64,000 bases of DNA, taken from positions 1,488,001 to 1,552,000 of the forward strand of contig NZ_CP109162.1 in assembly GCF_035920445.1 (NCBI RefSeq), read 5' to 3'. The notes under the pieces are model-generated. The model did not search any database. It was not told the origin of the DNA and saw only the letters and a list, made by a program, of their open reading frames with translations. Shown in pieces: positions 18,502-43,434 of the stretch (positions are counted from its first letter, which is position 1; each line of letters starts with the position of its first letter). A program made the position numbers and the translations under genes. This DNA is from Nocardia sp. NBC_01730 (GTDB lineage: Bacteria; Actinomycetota; Actinomycetes; Mycobacteriales; Mycobacteriaceae).

Positions 18502-18522
18502 GACATCCCAGGGGCTTGGACG

Positions 18523-19983: not shown

Positions 19984-19985
19984 AG

Positions 19986-20455: not shown

Positions 20456-20467
20456 GACACGGTCTAA

Positions 20468-23216: not shown

Positions 23217-24586
23217 ACGGAAGCCTGTAGTGAGTCGATTTTGCGGACAAGATATTGTAGATCGGCGTCCTTTTTCCGCGTGATAGCGGCATTGCGGAGC
23301 GGGGATAAGCGATCGACTGTCCGGATGGAACGCACAGCGCCAGCGGTGGCGACCGCTTGCTGACCAATGTCCAGACCGATATCTCGGGAGCCCGAGCGAA
23401 GATACGCCGTAGCGAGAGCGGTTAATTCAAAGACCCTACTGCGGGTCATGTCGGGACCACGTAGTGAAATGGCTGTTTCGATGTGTTCGATACCCTCGCT
23501 GAGTTCTTTCTCGGTGGCTTCCCGGTTCCCCGTGAGCGCAACGCCAACCAATGCGTTCAAATCTGCATCTCCAAAGAACCGTACCCAAGCCTGCGCCTTG
23601 GCGGACTCGGCTCGTGCGAATTCATCTTGTGCGCGTTTCAACGAACTCCACATTTGGTTTGCATCACCAAGCATCGCGTATGCCCAACCTTCGTTCGCGC
23701 ATAACATTGCGACCGTCAGGGTACATCCGGAATCTTGTGCAGCTATCTGTCCCAACTGGAAGAATCTGAGGGCTTCCCTAGCCATCCCTCGGTGTAGGTG
23801 CAGCCTTCCGGTGCGATAGAGCACATTGGCGGCAAGTGAATGATCTCCTGCCCCATGCGCTAATTCGAGCGCCCTTCCGAAATGTTGGCGGGCGATACTG
23901 TACATTCCGACGTCGAAGGACGTCCAACCAGCCAAGTTGTGGAGATCCGCGAGAGCGGCATACAGCTTGGAGCTCATGGATGTGCTGCACTCGGCGCCGA
24001 GTAGTTGTTGAGCCCACCGGACCTGCGCTGCGACCGCGTCTCGGCAAGCTCCGCCGCCGTGTCGATAGTCGACCATTCGCATGGCCGCGGTGAGCGTACG
24101 AATATGCTCGACGTCGGAATCTCCGATTCTGGCCGGTGCTGGCGCAGTCTCGTGATCGAACGGTTGCCACCAGCGAGCGATGTCACCGACCGCTGTTCCC
24201 ATGGTGACATTCGCCGCGTGGGACAGCAGTTGCCGCACCTCGTCACGTTCATTTGGCGCAGTTGAGCACGTCGCAGTTGCGAGATCGAGTGCCATCTCGG
24301 TCGTGCGGCCATATGCTAGACCCATATATCCGCGTGGTATTCCCAATCCGTCAGCGACACGCGCCAGCACGTCATAGTTTCCTAATTGCCTGCCTTTATG
24401 GAGAACTTCATATATCTCGTTTTGCCCAAGTACGGTCGCACGTCCGATCGCGCGTTGCGAAATCCCGCATCGCTGAAGTAGCTCGAAAACTCTCTTCAGG
24501 TTCCGTGCTGCCAATGCCTTGCGCATCTCCATGCCTTCCCACACAGTCGGGTCGATCGCCCCTGACTGTGCCGGTTGGAAGTTCAT
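23213..24586 (-). CDS. HTH-XRE regulator with TPR-like C-terminal domain
   Basis: 457 aa. A helix-turn-helix at about residues 35-80 (GISQRAIGRATVLGQNEIYEV, then GNYDVLARVADGLGIPRGYM) is followed by about 350 residues of tetratricopeptide-type helices (SIARQHFGRALELAHGAGD, LRFFQLGQIAAQDSG). These actinobacterial regulators often respond to a small ligand or peptide. It overlaps the APH-like gene and diverges from the small-ORF and heptose operon, with an ACTAGT-type palindrome between them, so I infer it regulates both directions. Confidence 0.8.
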   Translation of the reverse strand: MNFQPAQSGAIDPTVWEGMEMRKALAARNLKRVFELLQRCGISQRAIGRATVLGQNEIYEVLHKGRQLGNYDVLARVADGLGIPRGYMGLAYGRTTEMALDLATATCSTAPNERDEVRQLLSHAANVTMGTAVGDIARWWQPFDHETAPAPARIGDSDVEHIRTLTAAMRMVDYRHGGGACRDAVAAQVRWAQQLLGAECSTSMSSKLYAALADLHNLAGWTSFDVGMYSIARQHFGRALELAHGAGDHSLAANVLYRTGRLHLHRGMAREALRFFQLGQIAAQDSGCTLTVAMLCANEGWAYAMLGDANQMWSSLKRAQDEFARAESAKAQAWVRFFGDADLNALVGVALTGNREATEKELSEGIEHIETAISLRGPDMTRSRVFELTALATAYLRSGSRDIGLDIGQQAVATAGAVRSIRTVDRLSPLRNAAITRKKDADLQYLVRKIDSLQASV

Positions 24587-25149: not shown

Positions 25150-26193
25150 ATGACGCCTACGTTCGGGTACCTGCAGCTGTCACTGGTCGGTGACCGCGCA
25201 GGTCAGGTTATGCGCATGTTCGAGGAGCTGGCCCGCTATTGCGGGGGTTCGGTTCAGGGGCGAGTGTTCGCCGAGTTGGAGCCACCAGCTGAAGTGTTGT
25301 GGAAGATGTTGACCCCAGGCAACCGTGAGCAGTTACGAGCGACCGCCGCCCGCCGCGAGATTGTCCTGAATCGGGTGCTGGGCAGTCCGCCACCGACAAC
25401 TGCGTTGTGGATGCTGCTGGACGCGCTGGCGGGTTGCGATGGTGAGCTGACATATCTGCTCGTTCCGTCGCCGCAGCATTTCGACGGCCTAGGTGTACCA
25501 AGAGAATTGATGTTGCGAAGGATGTCGGACGCATGTCCATCGCTGCTGGTGGTGTATGCCGATTCGCCGGCTACACAGCTGCGAGAAGGGCGAAGCCTGG
25601 CGCGGCTGGGCGAGATCAGTCTTGATGACCAGCCAGGCACCTTAGTCGATGTCACGGTCAGTGCGTTCGCTGACCCTGTTGGTGTGGTGCTGTCCCACAC
25701 GCACTGGGGGCTTTCGCGTGCGGGTCTCAGCAGCCTGGTCCAGCCGGTCGATTCGCTCATGCGTCTGATCGTTGGTGCGGCGGCGAGTCACGTGACGGCT
25801 GACGCCAACAGGCTGCAGGTCCGGGTGGTCCGTCCGCCGCTGGCCGCGACGTTGGCGGTCGAGGTCTGGGAATCACGGGACCACTCCGACGAACCGGTCA
25901 GTGGTGAGGTGATCGAGCTCGTTGACCCGGACAGCGGCGGCACCGTGAAGCGCCACCGTAGTCCGGCTGGCGGGACCCTGACCCGCTGCGAGCTGGCGTT
26001 GCCGGGATCTGAGCGGACCGATCAGGTAGGCACTGCAGAGTTGACAGCTGTGCTGCATGAGTACGTTGCTGGGATCTCGGACTGGCTGATCGGCGACCCG
26101 TTGAGTTCCACGCGGTCAGTGTGTCATCGAGCGGCCGCCTCGAAAGCAGAGGCCAGCACCGAAGGTCATCAAAACGTCAGTGCAACGCGGTGA
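25150..26193 (+). CDS. 347-aa protein of unknown function, possibly regulatory
   Basis: Start ATG 25150 with GAAGGA 8 nt upstream. The first 120 residues have alternating strands and helices (FGYLQLSLVGDRAGQVMRM, YLLVPSPQHFDGLG) reminiscent of the resolvase-like N-terminal domain of some actinobacterial regulators. The last part (ATLAVEVWESRD, then GGTLTRCELALPG) resembles a degraded HATPase-type domain. Both resemblances are weak. It shares the rightward unit with the small ORFs and precedes the heptose operon. Confidence 0.55.
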   Translation: MTPTFGYLQLSLVGDRAGQVMRMFEELARYCGGSVQGRVFAELEPPAEVLWKMLTPGNREQLRATAARREIVLNRVLGSPPPTTALWMLLDALAGCDGELTYLLVPSPQHFDGLGVPRELMLRRMSDACPSLLVVYADSPATQLREGRSLARLGEISLDDQPGTLVDVTVSAFADPVGVVLSHTHWGLSRAGLSSLVQPVDSLMRLIVGAAASHVTADANRLQVRVVRPPLAATLAVEVWESRDHSDEPVSGEVIELVDPDSGGTVKRHRSPAGGTLTRCELALPGSERTDQVGTAELTAVLHEYVAGISDWLIGDPLSSTRSVCHRAAASKAEASTEGHQNVSATR

Positions 26194-27073: not shown

Positions 27074-29062
27074 ATGAACGAATCCGGTACGGATCGCGTC
27101 GCGAAGCTTTCCGCGGCGCTGGAGGGCGCGGACCTGGAGAAGGTCAGGTCATGGGGCCAGATGCTGGCCAACCGGCTGCGGCGAGGCGGGCGGGTGCTGG
27201 CGGTCGGCAACGGTGGAAGCGCAGCGCAGGCACAGCACTTGGTGGCCGAGCTGGTGGGCCGGTTCGAGTCCGAGCGGAACCCGTTGGCAGCGTTGGCGTT
27301 GACCACCGATTCGGCGGTGGTGACCGCGATCGGCAACGACTACGGATTCGACGAGTTGTATGCACGGCAGGTACGCGCGCACGGCCGCGAAGGCGATGTG
27401 CTGGTCGCGATCTCCACCTCCGGGCGCAGCGCGAACGTGATCACGGCGGCCGCGGAGGCGAACGCACTGGGAATGCTCACCTTCGCATTGACCGGCCCCG
27501 CCGGGAGCGCGCTGGCACAGGTGTGTGACGAGGTGGTGGCCATCGAGTCCTCGGCGACATCGACAATCCAGGAATGCCATCTGCTGATCGCGCACGAACT
27601 GTGCGCGGCCGTCGATGCGGCCCTGTCCTCCGCCCCGTCGGGTTCGATGCCGATCGCCCCACAGTCCAACGGCACGGTGGCTGAGCGGGTTCGGCGCGTG
27701 GTGGTGGTCGGTGATGTGCTGGCGGACTGCGACTGGTGCGGTGAGGTCACGCGGGTGTCGCCGGAGGCGCCGGTGCCGGTGCTGAGCGCGGTGTCGCGAC
27801 AGTGGCGGCCGGGCGGCGCGGGCCTGGCCGCGATGCTCGCCGCCGCAGACGGCTGCGAGGTCACGCTGATGACCGCGATCGGCGACGACGACCCCGGGCG
27901 GCGGATACGCGCGGACCTCGCCGCGGCGGGGGTATCGGTGATCGACCTCGGCACCATGGGGCCGACGCCGGTGAAATTGCGTATGCGGGCGAGGGGCCAG
28001 ACCCTGGTGATGGTCGATGATTCTGCACCGCCGTGCCCGGTGGGCGATCCGCCGCCGGAAGTCGCGAATGCGCTCGCCGAGGCGAACGGGGTGCTGGTCG
28101 CCGACTACGGGCGCGGGGTGGCCGCGCAACCTCGGCTGCGTTCGCTGCTGTCGACCGTGGCGCGGCGTATGCCAGTGGTGTGGGATCCGCACCGGCACGG
28201 ACCGGCCCCCGTCGAGCGGGTGAGCGTTGTTGTGCCGAACCATGAGGAAGCCGCTCACCTCAGTGGAGAAGAGGCTGCTGCCGGTGATCTCGATGCCGAT
28301 GTCCGCCGGGCTCGGAACCTGCGATCCTGGTGGCGATGCGGGCATGCGGTTGTCACTCGCGGCGCCGACGGCGCGGTCCTGGTCGGCTCCGACACCGATC
28401 CCGCGCAGGTGTTCCCAGCACCGCGGCGCGAGCACGGCGACGCTTGCGGGGCGGGCGACCGGTTCGCGGTCACGCTGTTGGAAGAGCTGATCCGCGCACG
28501 GATCCCGTCGACAGCGGTACAACGCGCAGTCGTCGTGGCCGCTGACTATGTGGCCGGACACCGCCCGCCGGGCCCGCGACCGCGGGGTGATCGCGATGTT
28601 GACGGGGTCGCGATGGCAGAGCGGGTTCGCGCGGCGGGCGGTCGGGTGGTGGCTACCGGCGGCTGCTTCGATGTGCTGCACGACGGGCACCGCCAGCTGT
28701 TGGAGGCTGCGCGCGCGATGGGGGACTGCCTGATCGTGCTGCTCAACAGCGACGCCTCCCTATCCAGGTTGAAGGGCTCGAGCCGGCCTCTTGTGCCGCA
28801 GGCGCAGCGGGCGGCGATGCTGGCGGCGTTTGCGTGCGTGGATGCGGTCGTAGTGTTCGACGAGGACACCCCCGCCGAGCTGCTGGAGCAGGTGCGGCCG
28901 CACATCTGGATCAAGGGCGGCGACTACGGTGTTACCGAGCTGCCCGAGGCTGCGGTGGTGCAGCGCCATGGGGGCCAGGTCGTTTTCGGCCCGTACTTGG
29001 ATGGGGTGTCGACGAGTGAGTTGATCGAGCGTGCTGTTGCCGGGCGGATGGTGCGGTCATGA
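27074..29062 (+). CDS. Three-domain GmhA-HldE fusion: heptose-7-P isomerase, kinase and adenylyltransferase
   Basis: A 662-aa protein starting at ATG 27074 (GGGGGAGA upstream). Residues 1-200 are a SIS-fold sedoheptulose-7-phosphate isomerase (AVGNGGSAAQAQHLVAEL; ISTSGRSANV; QECHLLIAHEL). Residues 210-500 are a PfkB/RfaE-type kinase (GGAGLAAMLAAADG; VPNHEEA; GDACGAGDRFAVTLL with the catalytic Asp). Residues 520-660 are a nucleotidyltransferase (ATGGCFDVLHDGHRQLLE, the HxGH motif; IKGGDY). Together they would turn sedoheptulose-7-P into heptose-7-P, then the 1,7-bisphosphate and, after a phosphatase step, NDP-heptose. Normally GmhA and HldE are separate. It opens the coupled ten-gene run and overlaps the epimerase gene by 4 nt. 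Confidence 0.88.
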   Translation: MNESGTDRVAKLSAALEGADLEKVRSWGQMLANRLRRGGRVLAVGNGGSAAQAQHLVAELVGRFESERNPLAALALTTDSAVVTAIGNDYGFDELYARQVRAHGREGDVLVAISTSGRSANVITAAAEANALGMLTFALTGPAGSALAQVCDEVVAIESSATSTIQECHLLIAHELCAAVDAALSSAPSGSMPIAPQSNGTVAERVRRVVVVGDVLADCDWCGEVTRVSPEAPVPVLSAVSRQWRPGGAGLAAMLAAADGCEVTLMTAIGDDDPGRRIRADLAAAGVSVIDLGTMGPTPVKLRMRARGQTLVMVDDSAPPCPVGDPPPEVANALAEANGVLVADYGRGVAAQPRLRSLLSTVARRMPVVWDPHRHGPAPVERVSVVVPNHEEAAHLSGEEAAAGDLDADVRRARNLRSWWRCGHAVVTRGADGAVLVGSDTDPAQVFPAPRREHGDACGAGDRFAVTLLEELIRARIPSTAVQRAVVVAADYVAGHRPPGPRPRGDRDVDGVAMAERVRAAGGRVVATGGCFDVLHDGHRQLLEAARAMGDCLIVLLNSDASLSRLKGSSRPLVPQAQRAAMLAAFACVDAVVVFDEDTPAELLEQVRPHIWIKGGDYGVTELPEAAVVQRHGGQVVFGPYLDGVSTSELIERAVAGRMVRS

Positions 29063-30036
29063 CCCGCTCGGTGCTGGTAACGGGAGTGGCGGGGTTCATC
29101 GGCAGCCACACGGCCGCCGATCTGCATGCGGCGGGGTGGATGGTGACCGGGGTCGACCACCACCCGGCCCACGAGGGCCGGGTGTGGGAGTCGATCACCG
29201 CAGACGCCGCCGACCCGGCGCTGCTGGCGCGGGTCGCTGGAGGGGAATTCGCGGTAGTCGTCCATCAGGCGGCGATCAGCGACACTCTCGCCCCGGATGA
29301 CGAGCGGCTGCGGTGGTGCAACGCGACGATGCCGCTGCGGATTGCGCGCGCGTGCGCCGAATCCGGGACACGTCTGGTGTACGCCTCGTCGGGCAGCGTG
29401 TACGGCATTGTGCCGCAAGGTGTTTCCTCGCTGGAATCCGACGCCTACGATCGAGGGCGCTGCTCAGGCCCGCTCAACGCGTACGCGAAATCGAAGCTCG
29501 TGATGGATCGGGCGATGCGTCGCCGCGCGGCGGTATTCGGCCTGGACTTTGTTGGGCTGCGCTACACCAACGTCTTCGGCCCCGGCGAACAGTCCAAGGG
29601 GCGCATGGCGTCGATCCTGTGGCAGATCCTCACCACCGCGGCCGCCGGGCAACCGGTGCGGTTGTTCAACGATACCCTGACCGCCGCGCGGGACTACCTA
29701 CCGGTACAGCTGCTGGTCTCAACTCTGGTGCGGCTGCTCGACAACCCGCACATCCGCGGGGTCTACAACCTCGGCTCCGGGACCGCGATCCGGTTCGAGA
29801 CGTTGCTGGGCTGGTGCACCGAGTGGGCCGGCGCCCCGGTGCCGATGGTGGGAGTGCCGAACCCAGTCCGCGACCGCTACCAGTACTGGACGTGCGCGGA
29901 TATGCGGCTCCTGCGGAGGGCGATGCCCGGCCTGGAACCGGTGAGCGTGAACGAAATCCGCAGTTATGCCTGTGACCTGTTTGACCACATCCGAGCCGAA
30001 ACCGTCGGCGTGGGCGAGCTTGTGAAGTCCCTGTGA
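29059..30036 (+). CDS. NAD-dependent sugar-nucleotide epimerase/dehydratase (HldD-like)
   Basis: A 325-aa extended SDR: GVAGFIGSHTAADLHAAGW is the Rossmann glycine motif, SSGSVYG precedes the catalytic Ser, NAYAKSKLVMDR carries Y-x-x-x-K, and TNVFGPGEQSKGRMASI resembles HldD (ADP-heptose 6-epimerase) with ARDYLPV downstream. It probably epimerises the NDP-heptose made by the preceding fusion. ATGA overlap with the upstream gene. Confidence 0.82.
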   Translation: MTRSVLVTGVAGFIGSHTAADLHAAGWMVTGVDHHPAHEGRVWESITADAADPALLARVAGGEFAVVVHQAAISDTLAPDDERLRWCNATMPLRIARACAESGTRLVYASSGSVYGIVPQGVSSLESDAYDRGRCSGPLNAYAKSKLVMDRAMRRRAAVFGLDFVGLRYTNVFGPGEQSKGRMASILWQILTTAAAGQPVRLFNDTLTAARDYLPVQLLVSTLVRLLDNPHIRGVYNLGSGTAIRFETLLGWCTEWAGAPVPMVGVPNPVRDRYQYWTCADMRLLRRAMPGLEPVSVNEIRSYACDLFDHIRAETVGVGELVKSL

Positions 30037-30050
30037 TCGGAGGAAACGCG

Positions 30051-31160
30051 ATGTCTACCAGCACAACCGACGTGCTCGATGGAGAGAAGGCGCTACGCCA
30101 CCGGATCACGGTGTTGTCGCGGTCACTGCGAGAGGTGACCGCGGTCGAACACCTGCAAAAGCCGCGGTACGTCGGCTACGACACCGTCCGCGACGCCGAC
30201 GGCACCACCTACGGCCGCAAGAAGGCGATCCTGATGTCGGGCGGATGCAGCGTCCCGACCTGCACGATGTGCCCGTTCACCAACTACAACAACTTCGGCC
30301 TGCACGGCGCGAACGCTGACGGCCTGCGTGGACAAGTTGTCACCATGCTGGACCGCACCGATGACGAGCCGGACTACGACATGCTCGCCCTCTACAACGA
30401 CGGGTCGTTCTTCGCCCGCCGTGAGGTGCCGGCCGATGTGCAGGTCGATATCGCCCGCCGGGCCGCGGCCACCGGAGTTCGCCGCCTAGTCGTCGAGTCA
30501 CTGCCACAGTTCGTCACCACCGAAACCCTCGTCCCGTTCGTCGACGCTCTCGGCGATGTACAGCTTGAGGTCGGGATCGGGTTGCAGTCGGCGGACCGGC
30601 TGGTGCGCGAAACCCTCGTCAATACCCGCGTCACACGCGAATCCTTCGAGGCCGCAGTGGCGTTGATGCAGGCGCATAACGTGCTTCCCAAGGTGTATTT
30701 GATGATCGGTCCGCCGTTTCTCACCGAGGCCGAAGCGGTGACCGACGTGATCGACTCGACGGCCTACGTGGCGTCGCTTGGCGTGGCAGGGGTGACGTTG
30801 TGCCCGACCCGATTGGCGCCGAACACGGTGGCATGGTGGCTGTACCAGCGCGGCCACTATTACGCCCCGAACCTGTGGGCGGTCGTCGACGCGGTGCGCG
30901 GCGCACACACGAAAGCGGCGGTGCGGGTGGCGTGTATCAACATGCGCGGCACCGACTTCGACTCGGTGTACCCGGACTCGTGCGAACGCTGCGCGAATCC
31001 GATCGTGGACGGGCTGGTCGCCTACAGCGTCAGCGGTGCCCCCGCCGATCTGCCGACCTCGTGCGAGTGCCGCCGAACGACCACGCCGGTCGCCCTCGAC
31101 CATGAACACATCCTCGCCCGCACCGTGGCGACTCTGGATGCCTGCGAGGCGATCGCGTGA
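30051..31160 (+). CDS. Radical SAM protein (Elp3/RaSEA-like), unknown substrate
   Basis: 369 aa, start ATG 30051 with GGAGGAAA upstream. The cluster motif is GGCSVPTCTMCPF, that is C-x4-C-x2-C rather than the usual C-x3-C-x2-C. The TIM-barrel core is visible (LALYNDGSFFA, RRLVVESLPQFVT, LEVGIGLQSADRLVRE, PKVYLMIGPPFLTE). A C-terminal set of cysteines (DSCERCANP and TSCECRR) may bind zinc or a second cluster. Radical chemistry on a sugar or an acceptor carbon is likely; the reaction cannot be named. Its place between the epimerase and P450 genes argues for a tailoring step. Coupled by GTGA to the P450. Confidence 0.75.
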   Translation: MSTSTTDVLDGEKALRHRITVLSRSLREVTAVEHLQKPRYVGYDTVRDADGTTYGRKKAILMSGGCSVPTCTMCPFTNYNNFGLHGANADGLRGQVVTMLDRTDDEPDYDMLALYNDGSFFARREVPADVQVDIARRAAATGVRRLVVESLPQFVTTETLVPFVDALGDVQLEVGIGLQSADRLVRETLVNTRVTRESFEAAVALMQAHNVLPKVYLMIGPPFLTEAEAVTDVIDSTAYVASLGVAGVTLCPTRLAPNTVAWWLYQRGHYYAPNLWAVVDAVRGAHTKAAVRVACINMRGTDFDSVYPDSCERCANPIVDGLVAYSVSGAPADLPTSCECRRTTTPVALDHEHILARTVATLDACEAIA

Positions 31161-32434
31161 GGCCGCCCCCGATCCTGTCCGAATCCCCACCTCCGGATCT
31201 GCCACGGTTCCTCGCCGCCCGACATCACGGGCTCGGCGACGTGTTCGCCCTCGACACCCGGGCCGGTGCACCGACGGCGTACTGCGTCGGGTCGGCCGCG
31301 GTGCGGGAGATGTTCGCGCGGGAACGCGAGGGCGGGCTGGCGGTGCACAACACTGCGACGGTGCACACGCTGTTCCGGCGCGCGGTGTTCACCCTGCGCG
31401 GCCGTGAGCACGAGACCGTACGCACCTACCTGTCGGCCGGGTTGCGGCACGACGCGGTGGCCGCCTACCTGCCGAGTGTGGCCGAGGTCGCGCACCGCCA
31501 CGTCAGCCGGTGGGCCGAGGCGGCGGTGGTGGCGCTGTATCAGGCTGCGCGCGACTACACGATGGAGGTGTGCCTGACGGCGATCCTGGGTCTGGCCGCT
31601 GATGATCCGACCGCGCTGCGGGTGCCGGAGTTGTTCGATCGGTTCGTCGTCGGCGCCGAACTCCCGCCAACTCACAGTGAAGGTGGGGACGAGGTGTTCG
31701 CGGCGGCCCTCGACGCGGCCGTGGAGCTGCGGGAGTTGTTGCAGGCGTGCACGGTTCGCGCGGCCGACAGCGCGCGGCCGTCGGTGGTGTCTGCGCTCAT
31801 CGCCTCAGGGCGGGCCCCGGGCGGGGAGGGGGTCGATCACCTGCTGGCGCTGCTGATCGCGGCGCGGGAGACCACGGCCAGCCTGGTCACCTGGCTGCTG
31901 ATCGAATGCGCACTTGATGACCAGCTCGCCGACGCGCTCGCTACCGACGCCCGCGACCTGGTCACCGACCCGGTCCAGGCGATCGTCCGCGGTGGCGCAC
32001 CGGGGTTGCGGCGGGTGCTTGCCGAGTGCGCGCGCCTGCATACCCCCAATACGATCGCCACCCGGCAGGCGGTCACGGATGTCCAGGTCGGTGGCTATAC
32101 CATCCCGGCCGGATGGCACGTCGCCTACAGCGCCCCCGCCACCCACCTGCTTCCCGAGCTGTTCACCGACCCGGAAGCTTTTCACCCTCAACGCTTCTGC
32201 GGGCCGGATGGTGCGCGCCGCGCGGCGGGGCTGCTGGCGTTCGGGCGGGGCGCGCATGCATGTGCAGGCCGCGGGTTCGCCGAGGCGACCACCCTGTTGC
32301 TGGTCGCGGTCGTGCTCGCCGGGTACCGCATCGACCTGGACCCCAGGCAGCGGCCGAAGGTTGAGCGGTTCCAGCCGGTGCGTGCCCCAGCAGGCTCGGT
32401 CCATGCCCGCGTTCGGCAGGTGGTGCGGCGGTGA
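31157..32434 (+). CDS. Cytochrome P450
   Basis: 425 aa. Heme-binding loop LAFGRGAHACAGRGFAE with the Cys ligand (about residue 368), K-helix E-x-x-R in LAECARLHTP, I-helix AARETTASLVTW (the Glu-Thr pair is present), and the meander PELFTDPEAFHPQRF. Complete and of usual length. It would hydroxylate or otherwise oxidise the acceptor or sugar. GTG start overlaps the radical SAM stop; redox partners are not encoded nearby. Confidence 0.85.
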   Translation: MRPPPILSESPPPDLPRFLAARHHGLGDVFALDTRAGAPTAYCVGSAAVREMFAREREGGLAVHNTATVHTLFRRAVFTLRGREHETVRTYLSAGLRHDAVAAYLPSVAEVAHRHVSRWAEAAVVALYQAARDYTMEVCLTAILGLAADDPTALRVPELFDRFVVGAELPPTHSEGGDEVFAAALDAAVELRELLQACTVRAADSARPSVVSALIASGRAPGGEGVDHLLALLIAARETTASLVTWLLIECALDDQLADALATDARDLVTDPVQAIVRGGAPGLRRVLAECARLHTPNTIATRQAVTDVQVGGYTIPAGWHVAYSAPATHLLPELFTDPEAFHPQRFCGPDGARRAAGLLAFGRGAHACAGRGFAEATTLLLVAVVLAGYRIDLDPRQRPKVERFQPVRAPAGSVHARVRQVVRR

Positions 32435-33705
32435 ACCTCGCAGAGCTGGTTGAGCGGCTGGTGCGATTCGAGGTTGCCAGTTCGCGGCGGCTGCACCTGA
32501 TCGCCAGCGAGAACCAGATGCCCGCCCTCGCGCGGGTGCCGTATCTGACCGAAGCCCTTACCCGTTACTGCTTCGGTCGTGCGGGCGAGGCGAATTGGGC
32601 GTGGCCGGGCCGCGGCGAACTCACCGACCTCGAGGAGGCGGCCGGACGTGGGATCGGTGCGCTGCTCGACGCGAAGTACGTGAGCCTGAAACCGGTGTCG
32701 GGATTGTCGGCGATGACCGTGGCCGTCTCGGCGTTAACCGGATCGGCAGGCACCGTGTTCAGCCTGGCCGAAACCGACGGCGGGCACGGTTCGACCCGGT
32801 TCGTCGCCAACCGGTTCGGGTTGCACTGGCAACCCCTGCCCATGGACCCGAGCAACTGGTGCGTCGATGTGGATGCGCTGGCGCGGAGGGCGCGCGGTAT
32901 CGGCGGGCCGTTGCTGGTTTACCTCGACTCGTTCATGGCGTTGTTTCCCCATGACATCGTCGCAATCCGCGCCGCGGTCGGCGATCGGGCGAGGATTCAC
33001 TACGACGGCTCCCACACCCTCGGGCTGGTCGCTGGCGGTGCGTTCCAGAACCCTCTCGCCGAGGGCGCCGACAGCCTCGGCGGCAGCGTCCACAAGACCT
33101 TTCCTGGCCCACCCGGCAAAGGTGTCGTGGCCACCAACAATGCCGGTCTGGCTCGGCAGGTCGACGTGCACGCCGCCGGATGGGTGTCGCACCACCATCC
33201 CGCCGACGTCGCTGCGCTGGCGTTCTCGGTGGCGTGGATGACCGACCACGCCTGCGACTACGCCGCCGCAGTCGTCGCCAACGCCCGCTCCCTGGCTGCC
33301 GCCCTCACCGCCCAAGGGTTCACCGTCTGCGCGGCCGAGCTCGGCCACACCCGATCACATCAGGTGTGGGTGGACATCGACCCGATCTGTCCCGCCGAGA
33401 CCTCGGCCGGGCTGCTGTATGAGGCCGGGATCGTGGTCAATGCCATCGAGATTCCCTATCTGAGCGCGCCCGGGTTGCGGCTGGGTGTGCAGGAGTTGAC
33501 CTTCGCTGGCCTCGATGGCAAGGGCGTCGATGAACTCGCCGCGCTCATGGCCCGCGTGCTGATCCACCGCGAACCACCGGAGTCGGTCACCCTGGCGGTC
33601 GATGCCCTGCGCACCCGCTACGTGACCAGCGACGACCAACAGGCCGCCGACGAGCTCGCGCACCTGCTGCGCCGGGCGCGGCGGCAGGAAGCGAGGACCC
33701 CGTGA
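32431..33705 (+). CDS. SHMT-like PLP-dependent enzyme
   Basis: 424 aa of the serine-hydroxymethyltransferase fold: LHLIASENQMP near the start, GRGELTDLEEAAGRGIGAL, the Asp-His pair region IHYDGSHTLGLV and the PLP lysine in GSVHKTFPGPPGKG. The central tetrahydrofolate-binding features differ from housekeeping GlyA, which suggests a specialised aldolase or transaldolase, of the kind used to make beta-hydroxy amino acids. It may build an amino-acid-derived moiety of the product. Coupled to its neighbours by GTGA overlaps on both sides. Confidence 0.8.
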   Translation: MNLAELVERLVRFEVASSRRLHLIASENQMPALARVPYLTEALTRYCFGRAGEANWAWPGRGELTDLEEAAGRGIGALLDAKYVSLKPVSGLSAMTVAVSALTGSAGTVFSLAETDGGHGSTRFVANRFGLHWQPLPMDPSNWCVDVDALARRARGIGGPLLVYLDSFMALFPHDIVAIRAAVGDRARIHYDGSHTLGLVAGGAFQNPLAEGADSLGGSVHKTFPGPPGKGVVATNNAGLARQVDVHAAGWVSHHHPADVAALAFSVAWMTDHACDYAAAVVANARSLAAALTAQGFTVCAAELGHTRSHQVWVDIDPICPAETSAGLLYEAGIVVNAIEIPYLSAPGLRLGVQELTFAGLDGKGVDELAALMARVLIHREPPESVTLAVDALRTRYVTSDDQQAADELAHLLRRARRQEARTP

Positions 33706-34862
33706 CCACCACCGAGCTGACGCTGACCGCGAATGAATTCTCTTGGCATCCGGATTGCCGCCACTTCGTCGGCGGCATGCCGTGCCAGCACTGGCGGGCA
33801 TGCCCCGGCTGCACGCTGTATGCCCCGGTCACGCACCGGATTCTGATCGTGATGCTCAAGCGCATGGGCGACATGCTCATCGCGTCCCCGCTTCCGGCCC
33901 GGATCAAGGCCGAACACCCCGGCGCGCACATCACCTGGCTCATCGGCGCCGAGTCCGCGCCCATCGTGGCGATGATCCCGCATGTCGACCGGGTCCTGGT
34001 CTGGGACGCCGACACCGCAAACACGCTGCTCGCCGAGCACTACGACGCCATCTACAGCTTCGAACGCCATCCCGCTGCTGCTGGGCTCGTGCCCCGCATC
34101 AGCGCCGACCACCGCGCCGGGCTCGCCTATGGCGGCGACCACAACACCCTCTATCCGCTCGGGCAGGCCGCGCGGCACTTCTTCGCGATGAACACCTGGA
34201 ACGACTTCCGCACCCACGGAAACGAAAAGACCTGGACCGAACTATATTTCGAGGTCGCCGGATACACCTACACCGGCGAGCCGTACCAGCTGACGGTCCC
34301 GGATGAGGCGAAGGACCGTGTTGCGGCGCGGCTGGGCACCAGTGGCGGATGGGTGTGCTTGAACGTCGGCGGCTCCAAGGCCACCAAGCTGTGGCCGGTG
34401 CAGTACTGGAGCGAACTCGGGCGGCGGCTGCTCGACGACGGGAACCGGCTGGTCATCACCGGCGGCCCTGACGATGCCCATGTCTGCCGCCAACTGCTGC
34501 GCGAGCTGGACACCGGCGGCGGCCGGGTCCGCTACGACTCTATCCCCTTGGAGGAGTTCGCTGCGGTACCGGACTTCTGCGACGCGATGGTCACCGGCGA
34601 CAGCCTCGGGTTCCACCTCGCTCTCGCCCACGACCTGCCCGTGGTGGTGCTGCTCGGGCCGAGCAACGGCGCCGAAGTCATTCCCCGCCACGCCGACACC
34701 GTGACCGCACTGCGGTCGAGACTGGCGTGTTCGCCGTGCGCGCACCAGGTCACCTGCGGCGGCGTCGGCGGCTGCATGGACACCATCACCGTCGACGATG
34801 TGCACGCCGCGGTCTGCAACTCGCTGTCCCCGGCACCAGCCGGGGCCGTGCGGAAGGAGTGA
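33702..34862 (+). CDS. Glycosyltransferase family 9 (heptosyltransferase-like)
   Basis: 386 aa. GT9 landmarks: ILIVMLKRMGDMLIASPL with the Gly/Asp motif, CLNVGGSKATKLWPVQYW (NDP-sugar loop, GGS-x-x-x-K-x-W), LVITGGPDDA and TGDSLGFHLALAHDLPVVVLLGP. N-terminal Cys pairs (HPDCRHF, PCQHWRACPGC) and C-terminal Cys (ACSPCAHQVTCGG) are extras. GT9 enzymes use ADP-heptose, which the cluster can make, so it probably transfers the heptose to an acceptor. An actinobacterium lacks LPS, so the acceptor is more likely a small molecule. Confidence 0.85.
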   Translation: MTTTELTLTANEFSWHPDCRHFVGGMPCQHWRACPGCTLYAPVTHRILIVMLKRMGDMLIASPLPARIKAEHPGAHITWLIGAESAPIVAMIPHVDRVLVWDADTANTLLAEHYDAIYSFERHPAAAGLVPRISADHRAGLAYGGDHNTLYPLGQAARHFFAMNTWNDFRTHGNEKTWTELYFEVAGYTYTGEPYQLTVPDEAKDRVAARLGTSGGWVCLNVGGSKATKLWPVQYWSELGRRLLDDGNRLVITGGPDDAHVCRQLLRELDTGGGRVRYDSIPLEEFAAVPDFCDAMVTGDSLGFHLALAHDLPVVVLLGPSNGAEVIPRHADTVTALRSRLACSPCAHQVTCGGVGGCMDTITVDDVHAAVCNSLSPAPAGAVRKE

Positions 34863-34865
34863 ACG

Positions 34866-36560
34866 GTGGGATACGTTCTCGGGCTCGGTGGCCCTTACCA
34901 CCACGACGCCTCCGCCTGCCTCGTTGCCGACGGCCGGGTCGTCGCCTTCGCGGAGGAGGAGCGGTTCTCCCGGATCAAACACCACCGCGACTCCCGCTCC
35001 GCCGCGGCCTCCGCGGCGTGGTGCCTGCACCAGGCCGGAATCGGGTGGAGCGACGTCGACGAAGTCGCGGTCGCGTGGAACCCGTACTGGCCCAACGACT
35101 GTGACCATATCGCCGATAAGGACATGATCGCCGAACTGCTCGGTCCGGCGGCGCGCGACGCGGGGGGACCGCGCCGGTTGACCGTCATCGGCCATCACCT
35201 CGCCCACGCCGCCAGCGCGTTCTACCCGGCCGGTGTCACCGACGCCGCTGTCGTCGTTGTCGACGGTTCCGGAGACGGGATCTCCACCAGCATCCACCAC
35301 GGCACCCGCACGGGCCTGCACACTCTGCGCGAATTCCCTTTCACCCAGTCGCTGGGCTGGTTTTACCAATTCGCCACCGAGCACGCCGGGCTCGGCGACT
35401 GGACCAACGCAGGCAAGCTGATGGGCCTGGCCGCCTACGGCCGCCCCACCGTCGACCTGGACTTCCTGAACCCCGCCAGCTGCGGCTACCACCTCGACCT
35501 CACCGGCTACGGCCTTCCACCCGATGCCGACCACACCGCCCGCTACAGCGACTTCTCCTACTACCGCGACCTGCGCCGCGCCTACGGCAAGGCGTTCACC
35601 GACGCCGGAGTCCCCGCACTACCGACAGCCGGAGATGACACGCATCGCGGAATCGCTGCCGATCTCGCGGCCTCGGCGCAACTGCTGTTGCAACGCTGCT
35701 TGATCAGCGTCGTCGCGACCGCGCTCGACGAAACCGGTTCCACGGCGTTGTGCCTGGCCGGTGGAGTCGCACTCAACTGCACCACCAACGGAATCCTCGC
35801 CCGCACACCCGATATCGAGACCCTGTTCGTGCAGCCCGCCGCCAGCGACGCCGGATGCGCGCTCGGCGCCGCCCTCGAGTGCGCGCACCGCCGCGGCGAA
35901 TACACCGTGCCCGGCCCCCGCCAAACCCACACGCTGCTCGGCCCGGACTACGACAACCACGCGATCGAGACCGCGCTGCAGACCGCCGGAGCCGACTACA
36001 CCACCCCACCCGATATCGCGACTGCGGCCGCGCGTTTGCTGGCTGACGGCAAGGTCATCGGCTGGCACCAGGGCCGCGCCGAGGCCGGGCCCCGCGCGCT
36101 CGGTGCCCGCAGCATCCTCGCCGACCCCCACACCACAGCCTCGCGCGACCGCATCAACCGCGACATCAAACGCCGCGAACTCTGGCGACCGCTCGCGCCG
36201 AGCATGCTCGACCTGGGACCCTGGACGACCACGCCGGACGGTCCGGCAGAATGCATGATCGTCGCCCACGACGCCACACCTCGAGCACGCCAACAAATTC
36301 CGGGTGTCGTCCACGTCGACGGCACGCTGCGCCCGCAACGGGTCGATCCAGACCTGCAACCGGCCTACGCGCGCCTGCTCCACGCCTTCGCCGCCGAAAC
36401 CGGAATCGCAGTGGTGTTGAACACCAGCTTCAACGGCCCCGGCGAACCGATCGTCGGATCGCCGGCTGATGCGCTGAGCAGCGGCGCCCGCCTCGGCCTG
36501 GACGCCATCGTGATCGGCGACTACCTGATCACCCCACCACCATCGAGCAGCACCCGCTAG
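34866..36560 (+). CDS. O-carbamoyltransferase (NodU/CmcH family)
   Basis: 564 aa with both domains: an N-terminal Kae1-like ATPase domain (HHDASACLVADGRVVAFAEEE; IGHHLAHAASAFYP with metal-binding His) and a C-terminal YrdC-like domain (LGARSILADPH; RELWRPLAPSML; NTSFNGPGEPIVGSPADAL). It would transfer the carbamoyl group of carbamoyl-phosphate to a hydroxyl of the sugar. GGAAGGAG lies before its GTG start, 3 nt after the glycosyltransferase stop. Its partnership with HldE-, HldD- and GT9-like proteins recalls the sugar genes of bleomycin-type clusters. Confidence 0.88.
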   Translation: MGYVLGLGGPYHHDASACLVADGRVVAFAEEERFSRIKHHRDSRSAAASAAWCLHQAGIGWSDVDEVAVAWNPYWPNDCDHIADKDMIAELLGPAARDAGGPRRLTVIGHHLAHAASAFYPAGVTDAAVVVVDGSGDGISTSIHHGTRTGLHTLREFPFTQSLGWFYQFATEHAGLGDWTNAGKLMGLAAYGRPTVDLDFLNPASCGYHLDLTGYGLPPDADHTARYSDFSYYRDLRRAYGKAFTDAGVPALPTAGDDTHRGIAADLAASAQLLLQRCLISVVATALDETGSTALCLAGGVALNCTTNGILARTPDIETLFVQPAASDAGCALGAALECAHRRGEYTVPGPRQTHTLLGPDYDNHAIETALQTAGADYTTPPDIATAAARLLADGKVIGWHQGRAEAGPRALGARSILADPHTTASRDRINRDIKRRELWRPLAPSMLDLGPWTTTPDGPAECMIVAHDATPRARQQIPGVVHVDGTLRPQRVDPDLQPAYARLLHAFAAETGIAVVLNTSFNGPGEPIVGSPADALSSGARLGLDAIVIGDYLITPPPSSSTR

Positions 36561-36586
36561 CTTCACCCGACCACCAGGACAGGATC

Positions 36587-37954
36587 ATGACAAGCGTGAC
36601 CGACACCGACACGATCACCACCATCGACCGGATCCGCGCCCGCCACGATGACGCGGTGCACATCGGCACCGGCTGCGACATCGCCGCCGACGTCGACATC
36701 ATTATCGACACCGACGCCACCATCACCATCGGCGACCGGGTCAGCATCCGCCGCGGCACCACCCTGCAAGCCAATACCGGCGGGCACATTGTCATCGGCG
36801 ACGACGTGGCGATCGGCGAGAACGTCGTCGTGTCCGCGATGACTACCATCCGCATCGGCCGCGGCGCGGGCATCTCCAACATGGTCGACATCCACGACCA
36901 CAACCACCGGCCCCGCACCCACGAGAACCTGGCCCCTGGCGAACCGATCACCCCGTGGGCCAGCGGATTCGACGCCGCGCCTATCACGATCGAAGCCGGG
37001 GCCGTTATCGCCAACAAAGTCTCGATCACCGCCGGAGTCACGATCGGGCAGAACACCCGCGTCGGTGCCAACGCCGTCGTCTCAGCCTCACTCGCCCCCA
37101 ACGCCACCGCCGTGGGCGTGCCCGCTCGCGTCGTCACCCGCACCCCGGGCCCACTCGATCCTGAGCAGCCACGGCAACAACTGCGCATCGGCTGGTTCGG
37201 AACGTCGCTGATGGAGCACTACGAAGCCCACAATCCGCGACTGTCCACCCAAGCCGACCTGCCCGACATCGGACAACAGCTCGAGGTGACCGAGTGGCGC
37301 AACCGCGGTTACGTCCACGCGCTGATCACCGGCTGGTCTATCCACTATCCCTGGATCACGATCCTCTCCGATAACCGAGGCGAGGGAGGCGCGACCTCCC
37401 GTAACGTCCTCGCCAACCTGCGTGCCGCCGTCGACGACGGCGGCCGGTGGGACCTCGCGGTCGTCGGCGTCGGCATCAACGACGTCTGGCGCCACCACCA
37501 GGGCCGCCACGACGAAGCAGTTGGCATCGACGAGTACGACACCAACATCTGCGCCGCCCTCGACCTCCTCACCAACCACGCCCGCCGGACCCTCGTGATC
37601 GGCGAACCCCCAATGGGATGGGATCCCAGTATCGACGTCCCCGCCGCGAACCGTGACCTGGCCGACTACAACCGCCGCGCCCGCCGCGCCGCCGAAGACC
37701 ACCGAGCACTCTTCGTCGACATCTGGGACGACATCACCTACACCGCCACCTGCTTCGGCTGGTCACCCACCACACCCACTGCCCCGGCCACCGGAGCACC
37801 CAGCGTCTGGACCGACGGCGTGCACCTCTCAGAACAAGGCGACGAAGCCATCCGGCAGATGGTTGCCCGGCAAATCACCACCCACCGGATCCTCGACGGG
37901 CTGCTCACCCTCGACCGGCTCGATCGCGCCACCGCGACCCGCGAATACCGCTAG
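36587..37954 (+). CDS. Left-handed beta-helix acyltransferase fused to SGNH/GDSL hydrolase
   Basis: 455 aa. Residues about 20-180 form hexapeptide repeats (ITIGDRVSIRRGTTL, IVIGDDVAIGENVVV, ITAGVTIGQNTRVGANAVV) with a HDHNHRP segment, like NodL/maltose O-acetyltransferases. From about 195 to the end there is an SGNH fold: block I GWFGTSLMEHYEA (Ser), then VVGVGINDVW (Asn), then WTDGVHLSEQG (Asp and His). Adding and removing, or moving, an acyl group on the sugar is the likely task; the fusion of both activities is unusual. It lies 26 bp after the carbamoyltransferase gene. Confidence 0.75.
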   Translation: MTSVTDTDTITTIDRIRARHDDAVHIGTGCDIAADVDIIIDTDATITIGDRVSIRRGTTLQANTGGHIVIGDDVAIGENVVVSAMTTIRIGRGAGISNMVDIHDHNHRPRTHENLAPGEPITPWASGFDAAPITIEAGAVIANKVSITAGVTIGQNTRVGANAVVSASLAPNATAVGVPARVVTRTPGPLDPEQPRQQLRIGWFGTSLMEHYEAHNPRLSTQADLPDIGQQLEVTEWRNRGYVHALITGWSIHYPWITILSDNRGEGGATSRNVLANLRAAVDDGGRWDLAVVGVGINDVWRHHQGRHDEAVGIDEYDTNICAALDLLTNHARRTLVIGEPPMGWDPSIDVPAANRDLADYNRRARRAAEDHRALFVDIWDDITYTATCFGWSPTTPTAPATGAPSVWTDGVHLSEQGDEAIRQMVARQITTHRILDGLLTLDRLDRATATREYR

Positions 37955-38631
37955 TGACCCTCGCCCACCCGAGAATTCGCACGATCGAACAGCTGGCGCG
38001 GGACACGAACCGGCCCCGCGTCATCTTCTGCGATTGGCACGGAGTGCTGTGCCGGAAACCGTTCTGGCACAGCATCACCGACAACACCACACACCCGTTG
38101 CACACGATCCTCACCCGCGAGCTGGACCGGCTGTTCACGACGGGCAACCGCGAGGGCCGCGAATGGATGTGCGGGACACGCAGCTCCCGTGACATCCTCA
38201 CCACCCTCGCCGCCCACCACCGACACCTCGACGTCGACCAGCTCCTGACCCAACTCGCGGACGACATCGCCCGGATGCCCATCGACCAGCCACTGCTCCG
38301 GGCGCTGCGCCGTGCCCGGACCTACGCGACCGTCGTCCTGGCCACCGATAACATCGACTTGTTCGAAAGCGTCTTCCGCACCGCGGCGCTCGGCCGCAAC
38401 GAACGCCGATCAGGCATGGCGACCTTGCCGGACGCCGCAGCCGCGTTCGACGACATACTCAGCTCCAGCGACACCGGCGTACTGAAATCCGAAGACCCGC
38501 AATCCTTCTTCGGCCCATGGCTGACCAAAGCAGGACTGTCCTTCACCGACGCGCTCCTCATCGACGACCGGACCGACAACTGCACAGCATTCGAACTACA
38601 TGCCGGTGCCGCCATCGAGTGGATCTCGTAG
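37954..38631 (+). CDS. HAD-superfamily phosphatase (possible heptose-bisphosphate phosphatase)
   Basis: 225 aa. Motif I is VIFCDWHGVLC (nucleophile Asp present; the +2 acid is His), motif II VVLATDN, motif III Lys in LKSEDPQSFF and motif IV ALLIDDRTDNC. The cluster otherwise lacks the phosphatase (GmhB role) between the heptose kinase and adenylyltransferase steps, so this enzyme may supply it. The His at the +2 position departs from typical phosphatases, so another role is possible. GTG start overlaps the previous TAG; last gene of the run. Confidence 0.72.
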   Translation: MTLAHPRIRTIEQLARDTNRPRVIFCDWHGVLCRKPFWHSITDNTTHPLHTILTRELDRLFTTGNREGREWMCGTRSSRDILTTLAAHHRHLDVDQLLTQLADDIARMPIDQPLLRALRRARTYATVVLATDNIDLFESVFRTAALGRNERRSGMATLPDAAAAFDDILSSSDTGVLKSEDPQSFFGPWLTKAGLSFTDALLIDDRTDNCTAFELHAGAAIEWIS

Positions 38632-41898: not shown

Positions 41899-43404
41899 TC
41901 ACGTTTCGGCAGCCGGTATGCGGGCGCGGTGGGCGCGAACACGGCATTTGGGGGAGCAGTACAGCGCCGGTCTGCCACCGCGGCGTTGTTTCAGTGGCGC
42001 TGCGCACCCCGGAGCGGCGCAGATCCCTGCCCCGTTCGGAGGACCGGCCGCCGCGTCGGGCTGTTCGGTTGGCGGGGCTGGCGGTAGCGCGTGGCAGCCG
42101 TCGCGTTGTACTTGCCACTGGCCCGGGGTGCGCCACAGTTGGCGGCGGGTGCCCTGGTCGTCGACCTCGTAGGGCTGGTAGCCGAGCCGGGCCAGTTCGG
42201 CGTCGTTGAGTCCGCGTTCGCGGTGAAAGGTGTTGATGCTTGAGGCACCGAGTGCGCTGCGAATCTGGAAGCAGGGTCGTCCGGGCTGTGCGCCGCAGCG
42301 TAGACAAGGCTGGTCAATCTCGCCGTAGAATCCGCGCCAAAGTTCGCCGGTCACAGGCATGGCCATGGCGAGGGACGCGTGTGGTTCGGCTTCGTCGGGG
42401 TGAAGTGGAGTCACGCTCGCGGTGACGGGATCGACCCATTCGGCGCGAACCAGGAAAGGGAACCGTCTGCGTAGCTGCTTCCATGCCCCGGACGGCCGAA
42501 CGGCATCGGTTAGCGTTGCGCGAATGTAATCCAGCGACCGCGTGCCGGCCATGAGCTCGGCGAGCGTCCCTTCGGCCCGGGCCAGTCCGGACGGCATGAG
42601 CAGAGGGACTTCGGTGGTCGAGGTCAGCCCGTCTGTGTCTAGGTCGATCATGCAGACCGATTTCGGCGGGTCGAAATCGATGGTCCTCGGCCCGAAGTCG
42701 TAGACATAGGGCAGCGGCGAGCCCGAGTAGCGGACCGCGGGGGAGACCGCGTGCGGCCAGTGCAGGTCACCGAGCGCGACATAGTCGATTCCGGCGAACA
42801 CCTCGACCGGGACGGTGTGACGACCGCCGACCCGCAATCGTTCCGGCCCGCGTTCGGTGGGGTCGGCCACCGAGACGTGCCCCACCACCACCGCCCGCGC
42901 TCCTGGGCGGCCCGCCAGGTCCGCGCGCACCCGCGTCATCGCAGCACGCCAGCGGTCGGCGTGCGACCGGCCCACAGCACTACCGAGCTCGGATCCGGCG
43001 AACTGCAGGCACGGAACCCCGTACACCGCGACAGGCCCGTGCTCGTCCTCGAACAACACCGGGCTGCCGATGCCGGCCACGCTGGTCATCAGGTGCAGCC
43101 CACCTGCGGCAGTGAACACCGCTCCGGCCCCCAGGCGGATCGGTGAGTCATGGTTACCTGCGATTACCAACAGCTGTGCGCCCGCTGCTCGGATCGCGGC
43201 GAATGCGTCCTGGCAAACAGCGACCTCGGCCTCGGATGGATCGGTTTTGTCGTATATATCGCCGGCGACGACCACGAGATCGACTTCCCACTCCTCGACG
43301 AGTGCCGGGATCTCCCCGACGAGTATGACCTGTTGGGCGGCCAGCAATGGCGTGCCTCGCATCCGGAACCCGATATGCCAGTCGGAGGTGTGCAGGATCC
43401 GCAT
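41899..43404 (-). CDS. SbcD-like metallophosphoesterase with C-terminal zinc-binding extension
   Basis: From ATG 43404, about 501 aa. The exonuclease fold is clear: LHTSDWHIG, VVAGDIYDK, VIAGNHDSPI, VVGHVSVAD and ALGDLHWPH carry all metal ligands of Mre11/SbcD. The C-terminal 150 residues are not part of SbcD: CLRCGAQPGRPCFQIRS with a His-containing follow-up and a terminal CAAPGCAAPLKQRRGG...YCSPKC zinc finger. No sbcC gene is adjacent, so the protein may act alone or with a distant partner, for example in DNA defence or mobile-element maintenance. Confidence 0.8.
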   Translation of the reverse strand: MRILHTSDWHIGFRMRGTPLLAAQQVILVGEIPALVEEWEVDLVVVAGDIYDKTDPSEAEVAVCQDAFAAIRAAGAQLLVIAGNHDSPIRLGAGAVFTAAGGLHLMTSVAGIGSPVLFEDEHGPVAVYGVPCLQFAGSELGSAVGRSHADRWRAAMTRVRADLAGRPGARAVVVGHVSVADPTERGPERLRVGGRHTVPVEVFAGIDYVALGDLHWPHAVSPAVRYSGSPLPYVYDFGPRTIDFDPPKSVCMIDLDTDGLTSTTEVPLLMPSGLARAEGTLAELMAGTRSLDYIRATLTDAVRPSGAWKQLRRRFPFLVRAEWVDPVTASVTPLHPDEAEPHASLAMAMPVTGELWRGFYGEIDQPCLRCGAQPGRPCFQIRSALGASSINTFHRERGLNDAELARLGYQPYEVDDQGTRRQLWRTPGQWQVQRDGCHALPPAPPTEQPDAAAGPPNGAGICAAPGCAAPLKQRRGGRPALYCSPKCRVRAHRARIPAAET

Positions 43405-43434
43405 GCGCGACAGGGTATTCCGCACCACCGACAA

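Follow-up and report, generated by a model that had tools for sequence, protein, structure and literature searches.

We identified a compact gene cluster in a 64,000-nucleotide stretch of DNA from Nocardia sp. NBC_01730 (contig NZ_CP109162.1, positions 1,488,001 to 1,552,000; hereafter the window), a strain whose genome is a single 8.68-Mb contig. We propose, with a probability of roughly 0.6, that this cluster, at positions 27074–38631 of the window, is a self-contained pathway, free of non-ribosomal peptide synthetase (NRPS) and polyketide synthase (PKS) genes, whose product is a small molecule with a carbamoylated and possibly acylated manno-heptose attached. The cluster consists of nine open reading frames, all on the forward strand and none with an internal stop, whose GC content at third codon positions (GC3) is 0.82–0.88. 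They encode, in order, a GmhA–HldE heptose synthetase, an HldD-like epimerase, a radical SAM (S-adenosylmethionine) protein, a cytochrome P450, a pyridoxal phosphate (PLP) enzyme of the serine hydroxymethyltransferase (SHMT) superfamily, a GT9 glycosyltransferase, an O-carbamoyltransferase, a hexapeptide acyltransferase joined to an SGNH hydrolase and a HAD-like protein. A preliminary description of this DNA had counted nine to ten tightly coupled genes joined mostly by 4-nt overlaps. Its list of domains and the coupling held up (neighbouring genes overlap by 4 nt at five of the eight junctions and by 1 nt at one, and are separated by 3 and 26 nt at the other two), but the genes number nine, not ten.

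The first eight genes form a conserved core, which we found in 11 distinct clusters of Nocardia and Streptomyces: that of the window; those of N. vaccinii, N. abscessus, alder85J and N. farcinica; a second cluster in N. puris; the type carried on a putative integrative conjugative element (ICE) described below; and those of S. filamentosus, of the genome G952 and of the linear plasmids pFRL3 and pFRL5. Ten of these are whole. The eleventh, that of N. farcinica, is truncated because its contig stops within the PLP gene, and the GT9 gene of the same genome lies at the start of another contig. On the Streptomyces plasmids pFRL3 and pFRL5, the order is radical SAM, P450, PLP enzyme, GT9, carbamoyltransferase, hexapeptide/SGNH protein, GmhA–HldE and epimerase, and the heptose module lies at the 3′ end in all four Streptomyces clusters. 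The two genera thus have the same set in a different order. Between the window and the four Streptomyces clusters, protein identity is 59–60% for GT9, 56–58% for the radical SAM protein, 54–55% for the PLP enzyme and also for the carbamoyltransferase, 49% for GmhA–HldE, 47–49% for the epimerase, 45–48% for the hexapeptide/SGNH protein and 37–41% for the P450. This comparison of gene neighbourhoods bore out the earlier proposal that the genes for an activated heptose, a GT9 transferase, carbamoyl transfer, acyl handling, a P450, a radical SAM protein and an SHMT-like enzyme belong to one conserved unit. The absence of NRPS and PKS genes noted for the window also extended to other carriers: none is annotated in 41 kb around the set on pFRL3 or in 33 kb on pFRL5, and none was found among the recurrent neighbours listed.

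The cluster has a patchy distribution. We detected the radical SAM gene in 12 of 150 Nocardia genomes and the GT9 gene in the same 12, with two further genomes containing only a GT9 match of 27–28% identity. Such patchiness indicates that this is not a housekeeping envelope locus, and the GT9 gene does not behave as part of an envelope locus conserved in all relatives, the pattern that the preliminary description had named as speaking against it. A search with the radical SAM gene returned nine loci, all from Nocardia, and eight of them carry the gene set, which in N. asiatica is cut inside gmhA–hldE by a contig end. In the N. brevicatena locus (L007), a radical SAM gene (80% identity) occurs without the rest of the core in 21 kb, apart from a carbamoyltransferase of 31% identity. 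It lies beside two P450 genes and an acyl-CoA-dehydrogenase-like gene, and a 37% relative of the latter is found near the alder85J cluster (L033).

We also observed indirect signs of linkage in a wider collection of matches. Among SHMT-like matches of at least 44% identity, 38 of 91 were accompanied by a radical SAM match with an equally long longest contig, compared with none of the 22 matches below 44%; seven of the 120 rows were left out of this count (P0006 and P0094–P0096 as partial, P0011 as having no contig, and P0097 and P0098 as chimeras). Similarly, 50 of the 78 best GT9 rows share an equally long contig with a radical SAM or SHMT match, whereas no such pairing occurs in the 19 rows with the lowest scores, 18 of which have at most 45% identity and one of which is a 51% fragment. 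The SHMT-like and radical SAM samples were the best 120 of 147 and the best 120 of 184 matches, respectively, and short contigs cannot show linkage. Among the matches listed, further matches to individual proteins came from Streptomyces, Kitasatospora, Frankia, Parafrankia, Dactylosporangium, Amycolatopsis, Sphaerimonospora and Catenulispora. Broad scans, which scored at most four to five candidates per genome and therefore give lower bounds, returned at least 1 of 345 genomes of the class, at least 1 of 396 of the phylum and at least 2 of 392 of Streptomyces.

One version of the cluster lies on mobile DNA. The cluster is 99.96–99.995% identical over the whole 21 kb in records L003, L004, L005, L009 and L010, and 13.3 kb of L006 is 100% identical to L003; together these six near-identical records come from N. 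arizonensis, N. puris, N. carnea, N. speluncae, N. wallacei and N. asiatica. Comparison of a complete genome (G144, C1:1776192-1871732) with that of N. arizonensis (G016) revealed 99.997% identity over 95,542 bases, outside which there were only scattered matches of 76–90%. In the N. speluncae genome (G122), compared over 46 kb, identity stops at the same point. In all, five more Nocardia are near-identical over 13–46 kb, besides the two with the whole 95.5-kb element. A large serine recombinase gene marks one end of the element, which also encodes two ATPases of the type IV secretion system kind. By these signs we consider it a putative ICE, and it appears to have spread between Nocardia species very recently. 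The window cluster is about 79% identical in DNA to that of the element, and beyond the cluster the sequence common to the window and the compared part of the element is limited to about 0.6 kb upstream and 2.5 kb downstream. The downstream part includes an SbcD-like metallophosphoesterase gene (window 41899–43434), whose protein is 87% identical to that of the cluster neighbour on the ICE although most of the compared flanks differ. Upstream of its cluster, the element also carries a radical SAM gene adjoining a fused GlyQS-type glycyl-tRNA synthetase gene (1015 amino acids; L035:3955-8390), a pair that may form an independent small system equipped with a copy of its target.

The first gene of the window cluster (27074–29062) encodes a protein of 662 amino acids in which the isomerase, kinase and nucleotidyltransferase domains of the route from sedoheptulose-7-phosphate to a nucleoside diphosphate (NDP)-heptose are all present (SIS_2, 97.5 bits; PfkB, 76 bits; CTP_transf_like, 66.9 bits). 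Against NCBIfam models it scored 180.6 bits with rfaE_dom_II (cut-off 181.5) and 164 bits with gmhA (cut-off 209.45), and it was the sole heptose-synthetase match in its own genome (52 of 52 candidates scored). Tridomain proteins of this kind are one of three known types of NDP-heptose enzyme, for which a promiscuity motif, (F/L)XXGRSTT, has been described (PMC11573728). The window enzyme reads YLDGVSTS at this position. Because the arginine of the motif is missing, we predict that ADP-heptose is the likelier product. The second gene (29059–30036) encodes a short-chain dehydrogenase/reductase of 325 amino acids that resembles the ADP-heptose 6-epimerase HldD (TIGR02197, 185.7 bits; cut-off 274.6), and its SSxxVYG and YAxSK motifs are kept in all 11 clusters. 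In three Streptomyces clusters (pFRL5, S. filamentosus and G952), a HAD gene follows 3′ of the epimerase gene. The pFRL5 protein is a homologue of GmhB (146.6 bits, cut-off 178) and passes a wider histidinol-phosphatase-domain model (125 bits, cut-off 84.15); with a GmhB homologue after the epimerase in these three clusters, the route from sedoheptulose-7-phosphate to ADP-heptose would be complete there.

ADP-heptose is a known precursor for lipopolysaccharide (LPS), for protein glycosylation and for natural products, and septacidin is one of the natural products that contain heptose (PMC11573728). The preliminary description had held that a Gram-positive bacterium has no obvious use for it, which proved too strong. 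The heptose synthetase query matched 65 of 150 Nocardia genomes, many of them at a different locus with separate HldE-part (36–50%) and GmhA-part (mostly 45–62%) matches; the window genome has only one copy. One such locus that we inspected closely (L095:5328-18284) encodes GmhA and HldE together with a UDP-sugar dehydrogenase and three GT9 proteins, one of which is fused to HAD domains, and it looks like an envelope glycan locus. The existence of such loci suggests that heptose is used elsewhere in the genus Nocardia.

The PLP enzyme (32431–33705; 424 amino acids) had been described as SHMT-like. We found that it scored higher with the fluorothreonine transaldolase model TIGR04506 (199.9 bits, cut-off 650) than with the SHMT model PRK00011 (177.1 bits, cut-off 335). 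In ObiH, the residues F58, W68, F70 and H324/Q325 are marks of an L-threonine transaldolase (PMC8072733). We aligned the window enzyme to an archaeal SHMT and to the structure 7k34, labelled ‘threonine aldolase’, which we took as ObiH because its residues align with the published ObiH residues at an offset of 12. The PLP-binding lysine is present (K222, aligned with K246 of 7k34, taken as ObiH K234), W56 corresponds to ObiH W68, W58 stands at F70, and H310/Q311 stand at H324/Q325; for F58 no certain counterpart emerged. The motif WxWPG is identical in all 11 clusters, the more distant rows P0099 and P0101 read W-x-F as in ObiH, and the SHMT-like rows P0107, P0108, P0113 and P0117 are without the first Trp. 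Because a Trp typical of L-threonine transaldolases is present, ‘SHMT’ is probably a misnomer and the enzyme is probably more transaldolase-like. Transaldolase-like genes are reported to be often miscategorized as SHMT (PMC8072733). By alignment, the window enzyme has the PLP lysine of the L-threonine transaldolases FTase, LipK, ObiH/ObaG and AbmH, and residues that may correspond to their mobile-loop Trp and His–Gln pair; it is unlike ObiH in having Trp at the position of F70, and it scores far below the TIGR04506 cut-off. A search of the window’s own genome with the PLP enzyme returned the cluster gene alone, without the expected housekeeping SHMT, and was not used as evidence. We also considered SHMT–HldE ‘fusions’ from S. 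olivaceoviridis (P0097 and P0098) as a functional link, but they run from SHMT through the start of GT9 into HldE and were read as deletion or assembly chimeras. Separately, S. clavuligerus pSCL3 (L026:9024-22015) and a plasmid of Streptomyces NBC_01244 (L027:7068-19905) share a cluster with a 39–41% SHMT-like gene, a TauD-type dioxygenase, an NRPS and a HAD-IA protein, which looks like another transaldolase pathway.

The radical SAM protein (30033–31160; 375 amino acids) is distantly similar to RaSEA, the radical SAM subunit of archaeosine synthase, and the RaSEA model TIGR01210 was the sole NCBIfam model that it matched (residues 60–349; 152.4 bits, cut-off 212.15). Some of its relatives are annotated as RaSEA; it differs from RaSEA in its sub-cut-off score, its bacterial origin and its place inside a biosynthetic cluster. 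In a selected set of 25 aligned sequences, the CX4CX2C motif at C72/C77/C80 and the C-terminal residues C317, C320, C344 and C346 are kept without exception, and the four C-terminal cysteines may bind a further metal. An AlphaFold model (pLDDT 89.3) has a radical SAM barrel and matches radical SAM structures. Foldseek ranked Elp3 first, and the VIA-align scores of BioB, queuine lyase, HydE, RlmN and Elp3 lie no more than 1 Z unit apart. The adjoining P450 (31157–32434; 425 amino acids; PF00067, 115.8 bits) keeps the ETT, ExxR and Cys-ligand motifs, with motif residues identical in all 11 clusters.

The GT9 heptosyltransferase-family protein (33702–34862; 386 amino acids; PF01075, 64.5 bits) has Cys-rich N- and C-terminal motifs and keeps its motifs in the aligned clusters. 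The O-carbamoyltransferase, of the NodU/TobZ kind (34866–36560; 564 amino acids), has both the Carbam_trans_N (PF02543, 145 bits) and the Carbam_trans_C (PF16861, 187.5 bits) domains. The next protein (36587–37954; 455 amino acids) combines a hexapeptide acyltransferase with a left-handed beta-helix (Hexapep, 37.6 bits) and an SGNH/GDSL hydrolase (Lipase_GDSL_2, 53 bits), and its GTS, GxND and DGVH motifs are kept in 10 of 10 clusters.

These enzymes suggest the following pathway. Judging from families with known reactions, the tridomain enzyme would isomerize, phosphorylate and nucleotidylate sedoheptulose-7-phosphate, with one phosphatase step for which the enzyme in the window is uncertain, and the epimerase would yield ADP-L-glycero-D-manno-heptose. 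The P450 and the radical SAM enzyme may oxidize or cut a precursor from primary metabolism. The PLP enzyme would then join an aldehyde to a glycyl unit supplied by an amino acid, for which L-threonine is the likeliest candidate, and its product could be a beta-hydroxy-alpha-amino acid or a nucleoside-type analogue. The GT9 protein would attach the heptose to a hydroxyl of this aglycone. The carbamoyltransferase would act most likely on the heptose, by analogy with WapO, a putative carbamoyltransferase thought to carbamoylate manno-heptose in Pseudomonas LPS (PMC8005017), and the bidomain acyltransferase/SGNH protein may add or trim an acyl group; the site and order of carbamoylation and acylation are equally conjectural. 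A more ambitious version, which we consider possible but less likely than not, is that nothing beyond the eight genes is needed to build a natural product of a new structural class. This would be a carbamoyl-heptoside whose aglycone is an unusual amino acid or an amino-acid-extended nucleoside, made through a bacterial RaSEA-like branch with an undescribed reaction and a new transaldolase family, and mobile in many actinomycete genera.

Several of our results weigh against the proposed carbamoyl-heptose pathway. The bisphosphate phosphatase step is unaccounted for in the window’s genome, in which no protein matched the GmhB model TIGR00213, and a second GmhB model, NF006506 (cut-off 178), retrieved no more than two HAD proteins, both aligned in part and with weak scores of 32.6 and 27.3 bits. 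The HAD-like protein of the cluster (37954–38631; 225 amino acids), an optional member to which the preliminary description had assigned the heptose phosphatase role, is not GmhB: it matched no family at 1e-3 (best TIGR02247, 15.8 bits) and no GmhB model. Of the 11 regions compared, we found it in four, which are those of the window, of N. abscessus, of the ICE type and of the second N. puris cluster. Phosphatases of the HAD kind carry DxD at the nucleophile motif, which is replaced here by DWHG; D27, T131, K178 and D204/D205 are invariant in four of four sequences, and the N. vaccinii copy looks degenerate. The protein may be a non-homologous replacement for GmhB. For the PLP enzyme, the best match in the PDB was the SHMT of M. 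jannaschii (entry 4bhd; 176 bits), followed by 7k34 (127.8 bits); the first Trp is present in 20 of 22 closer rows and missing from P0037 and P0093; and the H310/Q311 pair, found in 28 of 28 aligned rows with SHMT-like ones included, does not discriminate. The fold comparison singled out no reaction for the radical SAM enzyme, with no RaSEA-named row among the matches listed. The P450 is the least conserved core member, and its copy in G144 has an in-frame stop that is absent from the six named Nocardia records; because of both, its role may vary. No transporter or resistance gene recurs with the core among the neighbours listed. Finally, among the papers listed from the open-licence literature searched, none assigns a product to this gene set in its title or the start of its abstract. 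We considered saskemycin, a carbamoyl-altrose glycolipid, as the product and rejected it, as neither ‘heptose’ nor ‘radical SAM’ occurs in the main text of its paper (PMC12637814).

The alternative that survives best, although we regard it as unlikely, is that the cluster makes a nucleoside-type antibiotic. The aglycone would then be a nucleoside or 7-deazapurine, which the P450 would convert to a 5′-aldehyde and the transaldolase would extend as in albomycin and the lipopeptidyl nucleosides; the RaSEA-like enzyme would act on the base or on an amino-acid conjugate, and the heptose would be added as in septacidin. RaSEA acts on a 7-deazaguanine–lysine conjugate, and its model was the only one of NCBIfam that the radical SAM enzyme matched, but the score was below the cut-off. 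Nucleoside aldehydes are the substrates of the transaldolases LipK and AbmH; the AbmH pathway includes a radical SAM epimerase, and for albomycin such an epimerase and a transaldolase work on the same nucleoside (PMC8072733). Moreover, nucleoside-hydrolase-like and Methyltransf_19 genes lie upstream in four Nocardia clusters (L002:4855-6931, L003:4913-6931, L008:2184-4271 and L033:14506-17303). However, neither gene was found in the window, the nucleoside hydrolase was likewise not found in the second N. puris cluster, on the N. farcinica contig or in any of the four Streptomyces clusters, and no other nucleoside-pathway gene recurred among the neighbours listed.

We consider it improbable that the cluster is an operon for decorating a cell-surface glycan or glycolipid, in which ADP-heptose, GT9 and the transfer of carbamoyl and O-acyl groups would modify an envelope polymer. 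GT9, HldE, hexapeptide O-acetyltransferase and carbamoyltransferase genes are typical of envelope loci, and the other Nocardia heptose locus that we examined has three GT9 proteins and a UDP-sugar dehydrogenase. WapO, as a putative carbamoyltransferase of LPS heptose, also fits this alternative (PMC8005017). By contrast, the set described here has a single glycosyltransferase and no flippase or polymerase, is present in only 12 of the 150 Nocardia genomes and occurs on mobile DNA, and the P450, radical SAM and transaldolase-like genes would have no obvious place in such an operon.

We find it scarcely credible that the cluster supplies the sugar and the tailoring steps for a glycopeptide like bleomycin, with its NRPS and PKS genes elsewhere in the genome. 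In its functions, the combination of an HldE-like synthase with an epimerase, a GT9 protein and a carbamoyltransferase is reminiscent of the sugar genes of bleomycin, but no NRPS or PKS gene was found in the parts searched, the plasmid regions and the recurrent neighbours described above, and a split pathway would hardly survive the transfer of so compact a unit across genera.

Around the cluster, we observed several other features. At 22287–24586 of the window, an APH-family phosphotransferase gene adjoins a gene for a TPR protein, with GC3 below that of the operon. Among the neighbours listed, we found no relatives of this region or of 25150–26193 beside other clusters, apart from weak ones (about 28–30%) to parts of 22287–24586; weak APH relatives (28–29%) lie close to the radical SAM gene of N. 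brevicatena and to the cluster of G952. Genes for IS110 and DDE transposases and two phage-integrase-family genes flank the cluster (18410–21669, 57141–58193 and 62741–63832). Further downstream, 46860–52292 encodes a polymorphic-toxin-like protein of 1810 amino acids with a signal domain of the type VII secretion system kind, RHS repeats and a C-terminal HYD1-type ADP-ribosyltransferase domain. Two candidates for self-resistance near other clusters were set aside: among the neighbours listed, the glycyl-tRNA synthetase gene of the ICE is without a relative in two or more other regions, and a peptide deformylase gene was seen beside two Streptomyces clusters only, upstream of each (L024:15133-15636 and L031:5637-6212).

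The protein families of the proposed carbamoyl-heptose pathway are known; what is new is the way in which they are combined, along with the transaldolase-like family and the RaSEA-like branch in bacteria. Septacidin and hygromycin B, actinomycete natural products derived from sedoheptulose-7-phosphate, likewise draw on heptose-route enzymes in secondary metabolism, with the tridomain form known (PMC11573728), but, as judged by descriptions rather than by sequence, the window cluster adds a radical SAM enzyme, a P450, a transaldolase-like enzyme and a carbamoyltransferase. The WapO system shares the idea of a carbamoyl group on manno-heptose, there at 7-O of heptose II (PMC8005017). Compared by description, that system belongs to an LPS core and is conserved across Pseudomonas, whereas the window cluster is patchy, mobile, from Gram-positive bacteria and accompanied by enzymes for an aglycone. 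The sugar genes of bleomycin and tallysomycin, likened to the window set by description only, have a similar mix of functions, as the preliminary description noted; no NRPS or PKS gene was seen with the window set.

Many natural products have been found through NRPS, PKS, terpene or ribosomally synthesized and post-translationally modified peptide genes. This compact, transferred cluster has no NRPS or PKS gene and is a good lead for a new kind of natural product. Its product would give a function to a bacterial RaSEA-like branch of radical SAM enzymes and to a separate transaldolase-like family. Vertebrate cells sense ADP-heptose through ALPK1 (PMC11573728). The pathway would also show what use some Gram-positive bacteria make of ADP-heptose, and the named Streptomyces carriers are suited to gene deletion and expression.

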